Assembly (NCBI RefSeq): GCF_900176505.1
Contig: NZ_FWYB01000001.1
Coordinates: forward strand, 893,298-957,297
Length of the DNA: 64,000 bases
Source: Pedobacter nyackensis
Lineage (GTDB): Bacteria; Bacteroidota; Bacteroidia; Sphingobacteriales; Sphingobacteriaceae
Direction of reading: 5' to 3'
Shown here: one piece after another, positions 38,360 through 49,008 of the stretch
How the letters are laid out: each line of letters opens with the position of its first letter
Numbering within the stretch: the stretch's first letter is position 1
Position numbers and translations under genes: made by a program
The notes under the pieces: generated by a model
Database searches by the model: none
The model's input: only the letters and a program-made list of their open reading frames with translations
Told to the model about the DNA's origin: nothing

Positions 38360-38536
38360 AAAATGAAGGAGAAAGGCTTGTTGATTTATGAAAAAAAAAG
38401 GGGAATCATAAGTGATTCCCCTTTGGGTGGAGTCGAAGGGGTTCGAACCCTTGTCCAGTCGTGTGATAAATTATGCCTTCTACATGCTTATTTTCCAATT
38501 GATTGTAGGGATCTGGCGGGCTGGAAACCGACCTAA
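38360..38536 (+). pseudogene. Displaced 3' end of the serine recombinase gene
   Basis: Removing the insertion sequence and one 8-bp duplicate joins the recombinase frame to KEKGLLIYEKKRGIISDSPL. The frame then stays open antisense through the ssrA 3' end to a stop at 38534-38536. The true protein may have depended on this extension or on an earlier stop lost at integration. It shows that the recombinase gene directly abutted the tmRNA gene. Confidence 0.6.
38397..38424 (-). terminator. ssrA terminator
   Basis: A 12-bp perfect stem (38397-38408 with 38413-38424), loop TAAG, and a run of nine T on the minus strand beyond it. It starts four bases after the mature tmRNA 3' end. Confidence 0.9.
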
Positions 38537-38790
38537 CCGTTCACCTTAGGTACTTCATCTCGCAATTGTATCGTACCTTACAATTGCCAGCGTTGTTATT
38601 TCGATGCCCCAGATTCTAACCTAACATCGCAGCAGTTAGAGGGACAAAAGCTATTTAATTCTAAATTAAGCAGCTAAGGCGTAGTTATTTTCGCCAATTA
38701 TAGTGTGAACGTTCTCTTTTAAGTGCTCTCCGTACAACGCACTGCATGCTAACATACTTAGCGTCACCCTGTCAAATCCAAAACGACCCC
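38428..38790 (-). ncRNA. ssrA: tmRNA (transfer-messenger RNA)
   Basis: 363 nt. The 5' end GGGGTCG pairs with the 3' end CGACTCC to form the acceptor stem. The T arm is GGGTTCGAACCC and the T-loop region is intact. The tag frame at 38666-38695 encodes GENNYALAA followed by TAA. The CCA tail is not fully encoded (CCACCC). With SmpB it rescues stalled ribosomes and tags the protein for ClpXP or similar proteases. The 3' end is a classic integration site, and here it is bordered by a recombinase remnant. Confidence 0.96.
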
Positions 38791-43178: not shown

Positions 43179-44267
43179 TTAAAGCCTGCTTGTTCTGTTT
43201 CTAAGCAAATGATCTGCAAGTACCAGTGCAGCCATTGCCTCAACAATAACTACTGCTCTCGGTACCACACAAGGATCATGTCTGCCTTTACCTTTAATCT
43301 CAGCGGCTTCGCCTGCCGCATTAATGGTCTGCTGGTTGTGCATAATTGTGGCAACCGGTTTAAAAGCAACTGTAAAATTGATCTCCATACCATTGGAAAT
43401 ACCACCCTGTATGCCACCCGAAAAATTGGTTAGCGTTTTAGGCTGATCACCATTGGCGAGGAAAATATCGTTATGTTCTGAACCCCTCATCTCACTACCG
43501 CTAAAGCCCGAGCCATATTCAAAACCGTGTACAGCATTAATGCTCAACATAGCCTTACCCAGATCCGCATGTAGCTTATCGAATACCGGATCGCCTAGGC
43601 CCACCGGACAATTTTTTACGATGCAGCTCACTTTTCCACCTACTGTATCACCATCTTTCCTTACCCCATCAATAAATTCTATCATCTGGTGAGCCGTTGC
43701 AGGATCTGCACATCTCACAATATTCTCTTCTCTTATCGCCAATAAGGTATCTACATCATCGTGGGCTAAATTTGGTGCCTGAATCTGACCTACAGCCGAA
43801 ACATGGGCAAATATTTCGATACCGTGATGCTTCAATAATAACTTTGCAATGGCACCTGCCGCTACACGAGCCGCAGTTTCACGTGCAGAAGAACGTCCCC
43901 CACCACGGTGATCGCGGATGCCATATTTCGCATCGTAGGTATAATCAGCATGAGAAGGACGGTAAACGTCGGTATTGTGACTGTAATCCTTACTGCGCTG
44001 ATCTTCATTAGGGATCAGCATGGCAATAGGAGTGCCGGTACTTTTACCTTCAAATGTTCCCGATAAGATCTGAACAGTATCGCTCTCTTTACGTTGTGTC
44101 GTGATTTTTGATTGTCCTGGTTTGCGTTTATCCAATTCCGACTGGATAAACTCCAGATCGATAGGTAATTGCGCAGGACAGCCATCTAAAACAACACCTA
44201 TGGCCACTCCATGTGATTCACCAAAGGTAGTGATGCGAAATAACTGACCAAATGTATTGCCTGCCAT
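43179..44267 (-). CDS. aroC: Chorismate synthase
   Basis: 362 residues. The family signatures are [17 protein letters not shown] near residue 12, [20 protein letters not shown] near residue 118, and an FMN-binding C-terminal [14 protein letters not shown]. It makes chorismate from EPSP, the last shikimate step, in the cytoplasm. It is the last gene of the minus-strand aromatic operon, 44 bp after aroA. Confidence 0.97.
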
Positions 44268-44311: not shown

Positions 44312-45571
44312 CTAAACTTCCCTAACTGTAAAGCCAGCTTTTTCCAGGTCTTTCCAAAAATCAGGATACGATTTTTCAACCACCTGGTAATCTTCCATCT
44401 CTACCTCATCAATAAATAAACTCAATGGGGCAAAAGCCATAGCCATCCGATGATCATCATAGGTTTGGAACTTTACCTTCTGCGGGAAATTCAGGTTCTC
44501 ACAATCTAAAGTATACACCTCATTGCCCTCTATCAGCAAAACGCCAATTTTAGCCAATTCCTGTTGCAGGGCCAGAACCCTGTTGGTTTCTTTAATTTTA
44601 AGTGTTTCCAGTCCTGTAAAGGAAAGATTTAAGCCCTTTGCAGCAGCACATACAATAATTGTTTGTGCTAAATCAGGACAATCCTTTAGGTTCAATACCT
44701 CTTTAATCGCTACTGATGTTCCAGATTTTAAAGCAATGCCGTTGGGGATATACGAAGTGCGCACACCAAAGGGAATCATGATCTCGCTGATCTCGCTATC
44801 GCCCTGCAGACTTTCTTCCTTTAAATTCGGTAAGGTAATTGATGCCTGATCTGCCAAAGCTGCAATGCTATACCAATAAGAGGCTGCACTCCAGTCCGGC
44901 TCTACAGTTAAGTTACATTCCTTAAATGACTGGTGATCAATATGAATGGTGTTGCCTGCCCAATTGTGTTTAATACCTGCTTCTTCAAGCATGCTTAAAG
45001 TCATTTCCAGATATGGTCTGGAAGTTAACTCACCCTCAATTTCCAGCGATAATCCCTGAGGTAAAGCAGGAGCGATCATCAAGAGTGCAGATAAGTACTG
45101 ACTGCTGATGTTCCCCTGGATTTTAATATTCCGGGTAATCTGTTTGAAATTGTCGTTAATATTTAATGGTGGATAACCTTCCTGTTCGGCATAGCTGATT
45201 GCTGCACCTAATTTTTGTAAGGCTTCTACCAGCAATTTTATAGGTCGCTCTTTCATCCTACCGGAGCCAGTTAGGTGAAATAAGCCTTTTGCGATAGATA
45301 AATAAGCTGTTAAGAACCGCATAGCAGTTCCTGCGTGACCAACATCAACCGTAATGTAATCGCCACCTTCAGTATGCCCACTGATGGTATTAAGTATGTT
45401 ATTAAGGGTTACTGTATCAACAGCATCAGATAGGTTGTTAACTTTAACCAGGTTGTCAGACAGGGCGCTGATGATCAGCGCCCTGTTGCTTTCGCTTTTA
45501 GAACCGGTTAAGGCTATTTCAGCATTTATATCTTTAATCCCTTTAAAAGAAACAATTGCGTCTTTACCCAT
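44312..45571 (-). CDS. aroA: 3-phosphoshikimate 1-carboxyvinyltransferase (EPSP synthase)
   Basis: 419 residues. The shikimate-3-phosphate and PEP contact motifs are present: ALTGSKSESNRALIISAL near residue 20, VGHAGTAMRFLTAY near 82, and YDDHRMAMAFAPLSL near 375 with the catalytic acidic pair region. It follows the DAHP synthase gene with a 2-bp gap, so translation is likely coupled. Cytoplasmic enzyme of the shikimate pathway. Confidence 0.96.
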   Translation of the reverse strand: MGKDAIVSFKGIKDINAEIALTGSKSESNRALIISALSDNLVKVNNLSDAVDTVTLNNILNTISGHTEGGDYITVDVGHAGTAMRFLTAYLSIAKGLFHLTGSGRMKERPIKLLVEALQKLGAAISYAEQEGYPPLNINDNFKQITRNIKIQGNISSQYLSALLMIAPALPQGLSLEIEGELTSRPYLEMTLSMLEEAGIKHNWAGNTIHIDHQSFKECNLTVEPDWSAASYWYSIAALADQASITLPNLKEESLQGDSEISEIMIPFGVRTSYIPNGIALKSGTSVAIKEVLNLKDCPDLAQTIIVCAAAKGLNLSFTGLETLKIKETNRVLALQQELAKIGVLLIEGNEVYTLDCENLNFPQKVKFQTYDDHRMAMAFAPLSLFIDEVEMEDYQVVEKSYPDFWKDLEKAGFTVREV

Positions 45572-45573
45572 TG

Positions 45574-46713
45574 TTAAGATTTAACTTCAGTGTGAGTTTC
45601 TGCTGCAATACCTTTTTCTGCTTTACCTGCATTCATAATCTCAGTTTGCTTACGAATAGACTCTCCGTGAACAAGCTCCAGGAATTTCTCGGTAAAGTTT
45701 AAATCAAGTTTTAAAGCCTTTGCAAATGAAATTCCTTTTTTAATGATGGCATCCCAACGGTTTACCTGTAAAATAGTTACCTGGTTATCACGTTTGTATT
45801 CGCCGATTTTACCCACGATAGCCATACGCTCACCTAGCTTTTGTAACAAAAGGTCGTCAATTTTATCAATTTGTTTACGTAATTCAGCAAGCTGATCTGT
45901 AAAAGCTTCGTTTTGAGATTCTGGTTCACGAACAGTTAAACGTTCAGCAAGTTCACCAAGAGCAGCAGGAGTAAGCTGTTGTTTAGCATCTGTCCAGGCT
46001 ATAGAAGGATCTACGTGCGACTCGATCATTAATCCTTGCATGTCCAAATCCAATGCTTTCTGAGAGATGTAAGGAATCAGTTCGCGGTTACCACAGATAT
46101 GACTTGGGTCGTTAATGATTGGAAGATCAGGTAATAATGTTTTCAATTGGATAGCCAGTTCCCACATTGGTTCATTGCGGAATGAGCTTTTCTCATAAGA
46201 AGAGAAACCACGGTGAATAGCACCTAATTTAGTGATACCTGCACGGTTGATACGCTCTAAAGCACCAGCCCATAATTGCAGATCAGGGTTTATTGGGTTT
46301 TTAACCAATACCGGGATGTCTACACCTTGTAAAGCATCAGCAATCTCCTGAACAGTGAAAGGGTTAACAGTTGAACGGGCACCAATCCATAGGATATCAA
46401 CACCGGCAGCTAAAGCTTCTTCAACGTGTTTCGCATTTGCAACCTCTACAGCTGTAGGTAAACCTGTTTCCGCTTTTGCTCTTTTTAACCACTCTAATCC
46501 GATGCTTCCAATTCCTTCAAATTCTCCCGGACGAGTACGAGGCTTCCAGATACCAGCTCTTAATACAGATACTTTTCCGGTTGCAGCCAATAAATGAGCT
46601 GTGGTTAATAGTTGCTCCTCAGTCTCCGCACTGCATGGGCCAGAAATGATTAGTGGTTCGTTTTTAATGTTAAGCCAGGTGTTTAATGGCTGAATGTTCA
46701 ATTGTAGTTTCAT
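45574..46713 (-). CDS. Bifunctional DAHP synthase / chorismate mutase
   Basis: 379 residues. The N-terminal KDO8P-type DAHP synthase (about 15-265) shows LIISGPCSAET, LRAGIWKPRTRPGEFEG, AIHRGFSSYEKSSFRN and NDPSHICGNRELI. The C-terminal AroQ chorismate mutase (about 280-365) shows LRKQIDKIDDLLLQKLGERM and GEYKRDNQVTILQVNRW. The enzyme both starts the pathway and turns chorismate to prephenate. Such fusions let the mutase domain act as an allosteric sensor of the synthase. It lies between pheA (54 bp) and aroA in the attenuator-controlled operon. Confidence 0.94.
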   Translation of the reverse strand: MKLQLNIQPLNTWLNIKNEPLIISGPCSAETEEQLLTTAHLLAATGKVSVLRAGIWKPRTRPGEFEGIGSIGLEWLKRAKAETGLPTAVEVANAKHVEEALAAGVDILWIGARSTVNPFTVQEIADALQGVDIPVLVKNPINPDLQLWAGALERINRAGITKLGAIHRGFSSYEKSSFRNEPMWELAIQLKTLLPDLPIINDPSHICGNRELIPYISQKALDLDMQGLMIESHVDPSIAWTDAKQQLTPAALGELAERLTVREPESQNEAFTDQLAELRKQIDKIDDLLLQKLGERMAIVGKIGEYKRDNQVTILQVNRWDAIIKKGISFAKALKLDLNFTEKFLELVHGESIRKQTEIMNAGKAEKGIAAETHTEVKS

Positions 46714-46767: not shown

Positions 46768-47601
46768 TTATACTTTGTCATTCTTCTGGTATTCACCCAT
46801 GATGTTAAAGTTTACAGTGTATTTTAGTGCCTGGCGGATCGCTTTGTCATATTTTTCCATACTGGTCCATTCCATGTCCACATAGAAATAGTAATCGTTA
46901 CGTTTCCCTAAAACCGGCATACTTTGTATTTTGGATAAGTTAACCTGCTGTTCTGCAAAAATATTCAGGACTTTAGCAAGGGCACCTACGTGGTTGCCTA
47001 CCTGGAAACAAATAGAAGCTTTGTTAGTATCCGGCTGTTCTTCGGTCTTGTCCTGTTTAAGAATCAGGAAACGGGTAAAGTTCTTTTTGTTCGATTCTAT
47101 TCTTCTTTCAATAATATTCAAGCCATACAATTCGGCAGCAAGGGTATTGGCAATAGCAACCGTATCCGTTAATTGTTCCTCTTTGATTCTTTTAGCGCAA
47201 GCTGCGGTATCGTTACCTTCAATTACCTGAATATTTGGGTAATCGTAAAAGAAATCTACACACTGACGAATAGCGATGGGGTGGGAGGTAGCAAATTTAA
47301 CATCTTCAAATTTAACTCCTGGTAAAGCCATCAGGTGCAATTGAATAGGCAGGTATACTTCGCCTACCACTGCAAAATTATACTCGCGGATCAAGGTGTA
47401 GTTAGGCAAAAGGCTACCGGCGATAGAGTTTTCTATAGCCATGACAACGAAATCTGATTCTTTGTTTTCTAAACTCTCGCAAGTTTGTTTAAAAGAATTG
47501 CATTCAATGGTTTGAATGTCCTTTCCGAAGAATTTGAAAGCCGCTTCCTCGTGAAAAGATGCTTTGATGCCTTGAATTGCTACTCTTGTTCCTGTTTTCA
47601 T
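46768..47601 (-). CDS. pheA: Prephenate dehydratase
   Basis: 277 residues from the ATG at 47601, which gives the standard start RVAIQGIKASFHEEAAFKFF; a longer frame upstream runs into the attenuator. The catalytic PDT domain (1-180) has the NKKNFTRFLIL motif. The ACT domain (about 195-270) keeps GALAKVLNIFAEQQVNLSKI, but the usual ESRP is IQSMP here, so phenylalanine feedback may be altered. It converts prephenate to phenylpyruvate. It is the first gene after the attenuator and so the main regulated product. No tyrA gene is in the operon. Confidence 0.94.
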   Translation of the reverse strand: MKTGTRVAIQGIKASFHEEAAFKFFGKDIQTIECNSFKQTCESLENKESDFVVMAIENSIAGSLLPNYTLIREYNFAVVGEVYLPIQLHLMALPGVKFEDVKFATSHPIAIRQCVDFFYDYPNIQVIEGNDTAACAKRIKEEQLTDTVAIANTLAAELYGLNIIERRIESNKKNFTRFLILKQDKTEEQPDTNKASICFQVGNHVGALAKVLNIFAEQQVNLSKIQSMPVLGKRNDYYFYVDMEWTSMEKYDKAIRQALKYTVNFNIMGEYQKNDKV

Positions 47602-47650
47602 TAGTTTATTGTTTTTCTTTTTTTTATGGTTCGGTTTGGCGTAAAACCAA

Positions 47651-47679
47651 AAAAGTCCCGGCGTTTGGCCGGGACTTTT
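47651..47679 (-). terminator. Attenuator terminator of the pheA operon
   Basis: A 12-bp perfect stem (47651-47662 with 47668-47679) and 5-base loop, followed by a T run on the minus strand, 50 bp before pheA. Its upstream arm contains AGTCCCGGC (47676-47668 on the minus strand), which can instead pair over nine bases with GCCGGGACT in the end of the leader peptide frame (47723-47715). The two structures exclude each other. Confidence 0.92.
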
Positions 47680-47712
47680 CGTATACATTTATCGTGTTGA
47701 TATTAGTGCATA

Positions 47713-47775
47713 TTAGTCCCGGCTCTTACTAAAATAGTAGAAGTAACCAAACCAATATGTAGTAATATTTCTCAT
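47713..47775 (-). CDS. pheL: Aromatic leader peptide of the pheA attenuator
   Basis: A 20-codon frame, ATG at 47775, TAA at 47715-47713. The peptide holds YWFGYFYYF, eight aromatic residues in nine, covering all three aromatic amino acids. Its last codons (SRD and stop) overlap the antiterminator arm. If aromatic aminoacyl-tRNA is scarce, the ribosome stalls at 47757-47731, leaving the arm free to pair and block the terminator. With plentiful tRNA it reaches the stop, covers the arm and the terminator forms. Too short for standard gene callers. A clear Bacteroidota -7 element lies 66 bp upstream. Confidence 0.93.
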   Translation of the reverse strand: MRNITTYWFGYFYYFSKSRD

Positions 47776-47840
47776 CTGTTTTTCTATTGTCTTTTATTTT
47801 GTTGCGGCTCGTACACAAGCCTTTTTATATTTTGTTTTTC

Positions 47841-47870
47841 CAAATGTACTAACAAAATTTAATTTGTCAA
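47841..47870 (-). promoter_or_regulatory. Promoter of the pheA operon
   Basis: On the minus strand TTGAC (47870-47866) and TACATTTG (47848-47841) are 17 bases apart, an excellent Bacteroidota sigma-ABfr-type promoter. The transcript would start near 47835, giving a leader of about 230 nt before pheA. Confidence 0.8.
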
Positions 47871-47940: not shown

Positions 47941-49008
47941 TTATGAATTATTAATGGCATTAAAGTAGGCAAAACTCTCTAATATGTCACTTTCCGATAC
48001 CCTGCAGTTATAATCGCACTTACCAATGCTGCTCAATAATGAAAACATGATTTGCCCGTTTTCATTTTTCTTATCACTCTGCATCAACTCCATTAATTGT
48101 GTAAAACTGTCGGCTTTAAGATGGTAAGCTGGGTATAGCTTACTGATATAGTCAGTGATGTCTTCTAAATCTGCTTCAGATAAAGTATTGTTTTTATGAG
48201 AAAGGAACGCCTCGCAAATCATACCTATAGCAATGGCTTCACCATGTGTTAAAGGCTTTTTGTCGTTAGTCAAGGCATAAGTTTCAACAGCATGGCCAAT
48301 AGTATGTCCGTAATTAAGGATTTTTCTTAATCCTTTTTCATGAGGATCTTCCGTTACCACTTCGTTCTTTATCTCTACTGAACGGTAAATGGCTTGTGGA
48401 TCAATTTGCAGGTAATCACTGTTTTTAAGCTCATTGTAATAGTTGCGGTCGACAATTAAACCATGTTTAATCATTTCAGCAAAGCCAGAAAGCAATTCTC
48501 TTGCAGGTAATGTTTTTAAAAAGGCAGTTTCAATAAAAACAGCTTGGGGAAGGGTAAAGGTACCCACCATGTTCTTAACATTATCTATATCGATACCTGT
48601 TTTTCCACCTACAGAAGCATCAACCTGGGAAAGTAAAGTAGTAGGAATATTGATGAAATCAATTCCACGCTTATAAGTAGATGCTACAAAACCACCCATG
48701 TCTGTAATTACACCGCCACCAAGATTAATCATCAGACACTTGCGGTCGGCACCAAAATCAAGTAATGTTTTCCATATACCTATACAAAAATCAATATTCT
48801 TGTTCTCTTCTCCCGGATCAGTTTCAATCAGGTCGAAACCATTAAAATCATCCAGCATCTCACGAAAAAGAGGCAAACACACCTCTGAAGTATTGCTATC
48901 CGCAAAAACAAATATTTTGCTGTACCTGCCAGATTCGAACACCTCTGTTAAAGGTGCGAGTTGAGTCTCAAAATGGATGGTGTGGCCAGCGCTATCTAGC
49001 TTATTCAT
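47941..49008 (-). CDS. aroB: 3-dehydroquinate synthase
   Basis: 355 residues with the NAD-binding and zinc-site pattern of the family: INLGGGVITDMGGFVASTYK near residue 95, TTLLSQVDASVGGKTGIDI near 127, the zinc region with EMIKHGLI, and LNYGHTIGHAVE near 235. It converts DAHP to 3-dehydroquinate. Its start overlaps the stop of the S4 protein gene (TAATG), so the two are coupled, and it is separated from the pheA operon by the promoter and attenuator. Confidence 0.95.
   Translation of the reverse strand: MNKLDSAGHTIHFETQLAPLTEVFESGRYSKIFVFADSNTSEVCLPLFREMLDDFNGFDLIETDPGEENKNIDFCIGIWKTLLDFGADRKCLMINLGGGVITDMGGFVASTYKRGIDFINIPTTLLSQVDASVGGKTGIDIDNVKNMVGTFTLPQAVFIETAFLKTLPARELLSGFAEMIKHGLIVDRNYYNELKNSDYLQIDPQAIYRSVEIKNEVVTEDPHEKGLRKILNYGHTIGHAVETYALTNDKKPLTHGEAIAIGMICEAFLSHKNNTLSEADLEDITDYISKLYPAYHLKADSFTQLMELMQSDKKNENGQIMFSLLSSIGKCDYNCRVSESDILESFAYFNAINNS

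Follow-up and report, generated by a model that had tools for sequence, protein, structure and literature searches.

A candidate transcription attenuator with a mixed aromatic leader peptide upstream of the pheA operon in Pedobacter nyackensis and other Bacteroidia

The window, meaning here the whole stretch of 64,000 nucleotides of Pedobacter nyackensis DNA that was analysed, has on its minus strand an operon of aromatic amino acid biosynthesis in which pheA (start at 47601) is followed by genes for a DAHP synthase/chorismate mutase fusion, EPSP synthase and chorismate synthase (Table 1). The order pheA-aroG/CM-aroA-aroC is found in 75 of 80 relatives and is partial in the remaining five. Upstream of pheA, on the same strand, a putative attenuator spans positions 47870-47650. 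An in-frame ATG at 47688 would lengthen the pheA frame to 306 amino acids by taking in a part of this element (47688-47602), and automatic annotation could wrongly place the pheA start there. The window also has a tmRNA gene on the minus strand (38425-38790; Rfam RF00023, 119 bits).

Table 1. Positions in the window of the parts of the putative attenuator and of the genes of the operon behind it
Feature	Position	Strand	Remarks
Bacteroidota-type promoter, TTGACA-N16-TACATTTG, -33 and -7 boxes	47841-47870	minus	motif match
Leader peptide gene, 20 codons, MRNITTYWFGYFYYFSKSRD	47713-47775	minus	ATG at 47775, stop at 47713; aromatic run is codons 7-15
Strand 1, Tyr-Trp-Phe-Gly-Tyr codons	47741-47759	minus	forms protector hairpin 1:2 with strand 2
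Strand 2, core GCCGGGACT at 47723-47715 (end of leader frame) and TATGCA at 47712-47707	47707-47730	minus	partner is strand 1 or strand 3
Strand 3, TGTATA at 47687-47682 and AGTCCCGGC at 47676-47668	47668-47687	minus	antiterminator partner of strand 2; 47680-47668 is the terminator 5' arm
Strand 4, intrinsic terminator 3' arm with U-run	47650-47662	minus	pairs with strand 3
pheA, prephenate dehydratase, first gene of operon	46768-47601	minus	PF00800, 181.6 bits; ACT domain match weak
DAHP synthase/chorismate mutase fusion	45574-46713	minus	PF00793 and PF01817
aroA, EPSP synthase	44312-45571	minus	domain/gene assignment
aroC, chorismate synthase	43179-44267	minus	domain/gene assignment

The short frame ahead of pheA had been predicted to have 20 codons at 47775-47713 with eight aromatic residues in nine, and these coordinates proved to be exact. 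Its run YWFGYFYYF precedes genes of aromatic biosynthesis, and it is the sole ORF of 10-40 amino acids with at least 7/9 aromatic residues on the two strands of the 64-kb window. The promoter announced ahead of the leader was also confirmed, with TTGACA...TACATTTG at 47870-47841. The second of its boxes fits the TAnnTTTG box of the main sigma factor of Flavobacterium psychrophilum, and as the latter is placed at -12 to -5 in the description of that factor (PMC9723704), transcription would be expected to start near 47836.

Between leader and pheA stands an intrinsic terminator (helix 3:4), originally described as a 12-bp hairpin with a T run; the terminator itself stands, while its stem has 13 bp (47680-47650) and takes in part of the U-run. 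The antiterminator (helix 2:3) contains the perfect 9-bp pairing that had been proposed between 47723-47715 (GCCGGGACT) and 47676-47668 (AGTCCCGGC), with 9/9 bases pairing and the coordinates exact, and is extended by 6 bp (TATGCA with TGTATA) to reach -22.1 kcal/mol. It excludes the terminator by sharing its 5' arm. In the predicted fold, the regulatory aromatic codons of strand 1 are themselves paired to the antiterminator arm, forming the protector hairpin 1:2. When the attenuator was first called complete, this hairpin and the 6-bp extension were overlooked, although the leader, terminator and antiterminator on which that description was built all hold. In an RNA that ends at strand 3, before strand 4 exists, helix 2:3 is computed to be favoured over 1:2 at equilibrium even without a ribosome, so that termination in the absence of translation would depend on folding order (and pausing). 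The whole leader RNA folds at -41.9 kcal/mol (z -5.5), with 0 of 200 shuffles equally good, and genome-wide searches for the 136-base element and for the antiterminator pattern each returned only the window's own site.

Relatives of the element were collected via pheA. The close set consists of 80 loci (the best 80 of 153; mostly Pedobacter and Mucilaginibacter, with one Nubsella) together with 30 from same-genus genomes, which include the window itself and in some cases duplicate species of the 80; leaving out three loci with too little upstream sequence (L003, L071, L073) gives 107 loci, with 91 distinct leader-to-pheA sequences. A leader with at least 7/9 aromatic residues is present in all 107, the window included. 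For the rest of the Sphingobacteriaceae, 41 of 134 prephenate dehydratase places were picked to span 21 genera, and the aromatic frame was found in 40 of these 41, with a looser rule (5/8) passed by all 41; L147 was left out of the leader count as doubtful, its pheA being just 41% identical and its peptide unlike the others. In other families of the class, a leader lies within 220 nt of pheA under the looser rule in 32 of 43 loci and 13 of 19 families, which makes 14 families with the Sphingobacteriaceae counted, and 27 of the 43 loci have leader, terminator and an antiterminator of at least 6 bp. No leader near pheA was found in 11 of these 43 loci, including all four of family f12 (L172, L203, L204, L210), where aromatic synthesis control may differ. 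In family f29, L211 was scored as a miss, its frame MLQTRFFFGYYYFYAAA lying beyond the 220-nt limit upstream of pheA; this may be the same element with another gene in between. None of the 15 loci sampled from other classes of the phylum showed an aromatic leader (0/15). It is also worth mentioning that a PF00800 match is absent in 16 of 151 family genomes, some of which are incomplete, 12 of the 16 belonging to groups g34, g29 and g46, and that several small family genomes without prephenate dehydratase may need external Phe.

A terminator accompanies the leader in 164 loci (107 close, 37 family and 20 class). These were obtained with a finder for perfect stems, which replaced one demanding a T-rich tail beyond the stem; the latter missed 60 of 169 loci because the stems run into the U-run. 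A perfect-stem terminator was not found in L121, L122, L146, L147 and L164 despite their leader frame, and in L121 and L122 a terminator with a mismatch was detected by the finder that was replaced. Within 140 nt upstream of the leader, a TTG-N17-24-TAnnTTTG motif is present in 86 of the 107 close loci; among 600 mononucleotide shuffles made from three loci, 7 contained it. The position of aroB, located upstream in the same orientation with its end at 47941, would suit a constitutive terminator or processing element behind the aroB operon, to which the leader frame would be incidental. Against this, a promoter motif stands between aroB and the hairpin, the leader frame, antiterminator and spacing recur class-wide, and no dinucleotide shuffle of the region (0/1500) yields a frame with 8/9 aromatic residues, the shuffle maximum being 5. 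This explanation was rejected on these grounds and appears extremely unlikely.

Strands 2, 3 and 4 change together among the relatives. The commonest triple is GCCGGGACT/AGTCCCGGC/GCCGGGACT, present in 56 of the 164 loci, while L028 has GCCAGGACT/AGTCCTGGC/GCCAGGACT and L089 has GCCGGGGCT/AGCCCCGGC/GCCGGGGCT. Further triples are found in other families, namely AGGCGGGA/TCCCGCCT/AGGCGGGA in L153, AGGATT/AATCCT/AGGATT in L155 and L170, and ACGGGACT/AGTCCCGT/ACGGGACT in L167. Over 28 loci, with alternatives re-optimised, exchanging an arm for that of a different family gave poorer pairing than the locus's own in 89% of comparisons (ties counted as half), and 117 of 5600 shuffled arms, each re-optimised, match the real one. 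Within the Sphingobacteriaceae the value for own arm against swap is 0.549, which says little because the arms there are nearly identical. A separate covariation count was set aside in favour of these re-optimised controls, as it was biased by a register picked for best pairing before counting. The antiterminator has at least 9 bp in 105 of 107 close loci, with L033 and L109 retaining 6 bp. The pairing becomes shorter with distance, and at least 8 bp is reached by 28 of the 37 family loci and by 10 of the 20 class loci. The alignment across the Sphingobacteriaceae that had been proposed as a check of the original prediction thus finds the aromatic frame, terminator and competing pairing kept and the three arms changing in coordination, and at the level of sequence the attenuator reading is supported.

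When the leader is redrawn 60 times with synonymous codons, hairpin 1:2 is on average less stable than in the real sequence. This applies to all 78 distinct close sequences (mean z -2.5), to 34 of the 36 family sequences and to 18 of the 20 class sequences, counts which are not independent trials, the sequences being related. In the window a TTC codon brings a C.A mismatch into the inner 1:2 helix found in other sequences and weakens it. The outer 1:2 helix has single exceptions in L069 and L077, with no compensation on the opposite side.

The leader peptides were scored from the start codon closest to the aromatic run, and true starts may be further upstream in some relatives; L070, for example, has an additional ATG two codons upstream of its scored start. 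In a group of Pedobacter relatives, the leaders of L005, L013, L015-L018, L023, L046 and L089 start with TTG instead of ATG, which may tune how frequently they are translated. Within Pedobacter both the run YWFGYFYYF and the tail SKSRD are highly alike, as would be expected of an arrest peptide, in which a specific nascent chain and not slow decoding stops the ribosome. Across families, however, it is the aromatic content and the spacing that are kept, while residues swap (FYFFFYFYF, YFWFYYYFF, FYYFFFYF), and the tail, which encodes the RNA arm, varies or is lost. A one-base insertion in L065 and L072 truncates the peptide (FYFYFNR*) but leaves the arm GAGCCGGGACT intact after the stop, and in L126-L128 the leader frame stops ahead of the arm. 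The arm is therefore maintained as RNA and not as peptide, and an arrest peptide was rejected as very improbable.

The distance between the aromatic run and strand 2 is narrowly held. Measured from where the last aromatic codon begins, strand 2 starts 9-14 nt downstream in 107 of 107 close loci. The figure is 10-14 nt for the family (36 of 37 loci) and 9-16 nt for the class (19 of 20 loci, s.d. 2.5), in a search that permitted about -3 to +48 nt. In the same class loci the distance from strand 2 to the stop codon runs from -30 to +7, a span of 37 nt (s.d. 10). With class loci added later, the spacing is 9-16 nt in 25 of 28 and the full range is 6-20.

A ribosome in E. coli covers 13 nt from the A-site codon onward, and this value was used to model masking of the RNA, with 11 and 15 nt also run. 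At 13 nt, helix 2:3 in the window would retain 9 bp for a ribosome at codons 1-14, 6 bp at the last Phe (codon 15) and 0 from codon 16. In 104 of 107 close, 32 of 36 family and 16 of 20 class loci, the modelled switch point and the last aromatic codon are no more than one codon apart (L123 is omitted from these counts for its misplaced terminator). The corresponding numbers are 105, 31 and 17 with a 15-nt mask, and 85, 16 and 17 with an 11-nt mask, where the switch tends to come one or two codons later. Taken with the spacing, the masking model suggests that the choice between 2:3 and 3:4 is set by where the ribosome stands, within the aromatic run or beyond it.

The element is therefore best read as a transcription attenuator of the classical ribosome-mediated type whose sensor mixes aromatic codons, with a probability of roughly 0.93 as judged from sequence. 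The logic of trp/phe attenuation invoked in the original prediction is borne out by the frame, terminator, competing pairing and spacing across relatives. In the proposed mechanism, RNA polymerase would start at about 47836 and a ribosome would begin the leader peptide. When charged tRNAs for Phe and Tyr (and here also Trp) are plentiful, the ribosome would pass the aromatic codons and cover strand 2, allowing 3:4 to pair and transcription to end ahead of pheA. When aromatic tRNA is short, it would halt on codons 7-15 over strand 1 and leave strand 2 free; 2:3 would then pair, no terminator would form, and pheA-DAHP synthase/chorismate mutase-aroA-aroC would be transcribed. From this arrangement we infer the starvation response, the amino acids that count and the coupling of ribosome and polymerase.

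The original prediction had the leader sensing all three aromatic amino acids, which would apply at most to part of the group. Phe and Tyr codons are present in 164 of 164 leaders scored. A Trp codon is found in 89 of the 164 leaders (62/107 close, 18/37 family, 9/20 class), and its presence has undergone at least 14 state changes on a quickly built pheA tree (100 rows, with 41 of 97 inner branches weak). It is conceivable on these grounds that the sensor consists of Phe and Tyr only, with the Trp codon a tolerated neighbour and Trp starvation of little effect. Another leader, with two Trp codons (MINNIHTWQWR...), stands before trpE in the window's genome, which would fit such a division. On the other hand, a ribosome at the Trp codon (codon 8) would leave strand 2 fully free, so that a shortage of Trp should count where the codon is present, and the last Trp codon lies 28-34 nt before strand 2 in 79 of the 89 leaders. 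A sensor restricted to Phe and Tyr is accordingly given somewhat less than an even chance. With its Trp codon placed where a stalled ribosome would free strand 2, the attenuator in the window's genome would likely respond to Trp, yet Trp does not seem to be what selection holds fixed.

The probable Trp leader mentioned above, MINNIHTWQWRSTPQKSLVVALCTL, is located in the window's genome on contig 19 (L195, 1297-1374) and has a strong terminator ending about 55 nt before trpE. No antiterminator was seen in its fold, and a search of the window's genome with RF01692, in which 150 of 1329 candidates were scored, gave no match and did not report the trpE leader. A probable His leader, MKHLLNHHLHLHHRLSAMYM, precedes hisG on contig 10 (L196, 1408-1470); no strong intrinsic terminator was found after it and its mechanism may differ. 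With probable leaders at trpE and hisG as well, the lineage seems to use leader peptides repeatedly. The gene tyrA adjoins an aminotransferase gene on contig 15 (886-888 kb, L198), just left of the window and apart from the pheA operon, and no aromatic leader was found in the 900 nt before tyrA or the 1200 nt before the neighbouring aminotransferase gene.

At the site of the attenuator, Rfam model RF01692 (Bacteroid-trp) scores 22.2 bits, below its cut-off of 49, and RF01859 (Phe_leader), on the right strand, 18.2 bits, below its cut-off of 55. A structured leader that carries a terminator ahead of biosynthetic genes could also belong to a metabolite-binding riboswitch or a T-box that controls the terminator. 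However, no Rfam family is found at the site at gathering threshold, the 19 relaxed Rfam matches include no T-box or amino-acid riboswitch, and the structure is explained by arms that overlap the coding frame. This possibility was rejected on account of the Rfam result and the overlapping arms, and is scarcely credible.

The leader peptide of E. coli pheA is Phe-rich. An attenuator at pheA has been described for Escherichia coli and Salmonella, as have those of trp and his in enterobacteria (PMC1183508). The element resembles the RF01859 pheA attenuator in that a leader precedes pheA, terminator and antiterminator compete, and the position of the ribosome decides; it differs in that Tyr, Phe and sometimes Trp make up the sensor and that the operon adds DAHP synthase/chorismate mutase, aroA and aroC. 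The Bacteroid-trp RNA RF01692, which appears in a list of 2010 (PMC2864571), is according to Rfam a tryptophan peptide leader RNA of Bacteroidota, the same phylum as here, named for tryptophan, unlike the mixed sensor described here. The Leu/phe leader RF01743 of Lactococcus comes from that same source (PMC2864571). Codons of several amino acids are joined in that leader, as they are here. The same applies to the enterobacterial mixed-codon attenuators of ilvGMEDA (Ile/Val/Leu) and thr (Thr/Ile), and we know of no mixture of aromatic amino acids in any of these three.

In 2010 leader peptides were said to be known only from Proteobacteria and Actinobacteria, to which Firmicutes were added (PMC2965389). 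A map of Bacteroides thetaiotaomicron has since included short ORFs in 5' UTRs that are reminiscent of leader peptides (PMC7366714). In F. psychrophilum, clues to leader peptides before amino-acid operons have been reported together with a 5' element of pheA that is conserved in Flavobacteriaceae and has no Rfam hit (PMC9723704). That element shares gene and phylum with the present one, and the section of the report on 5' cis-regulatory RNAs gives no peptide, codons or competing helices for it (PMC9723704); here, unlike in that report, the pheA element is dissected and traced in 14 families. The original prediction knew the logic of attenuation from Proteobacteria and took the sensing of all three aromatic amino acids by one leader in a Bacteroidota operon as the unusual part; leader-peptide attenuation as such is not new to Bacteroidota, having already been reported there (RF01692; PMC9723704). 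Judged by its sequence, the element is a mixed-aromatic variant of known attenuation with no Rfam match. Among the matches listed, a Bacteroidota attenuator for mixed aromatic amino acids is named in no title and in no opening of an abstract. An earlier prediction is possible, the work of Lopatovskaya from 2010 being a likely earlier survey. The present analysis contributes the dissection of the switch, the mixed aromatic sensor, its class-wide spread and the spacing rule. The last of these, about 12 nt from the last regulatory codon to strand 2, offers a way to find leaders that are missed by Rfam models.

The element may represent an ancient, class-wide sensor of the whole aromatic pool in Bacteroidia, one that lets Phe and Tyr codons replace each other freely and gains or loses Trp, and which does by attenuation what DNA-binding repressors such as TyrR and TrpR do in enterobacteria. 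Such a sensor, an interpretation that we place just on the probable side, would set the expression of prephenate dehydratase and, at least in Pedobacter and Mucilaginibacter, of the first step of the common pathway as well as its last. Translation start signals in Bacteroidota differ from the Shine-Dalgarno sequence (PMC9723704). An attenuator of this kind works only with a ribosome close behind the polymerase, and could thus provide a simple genetic assay for coupling in this phylum; if the proposal is true, an aromatic-pool sensor at work would be evidence that Bacteroidota couple translation to transcription.
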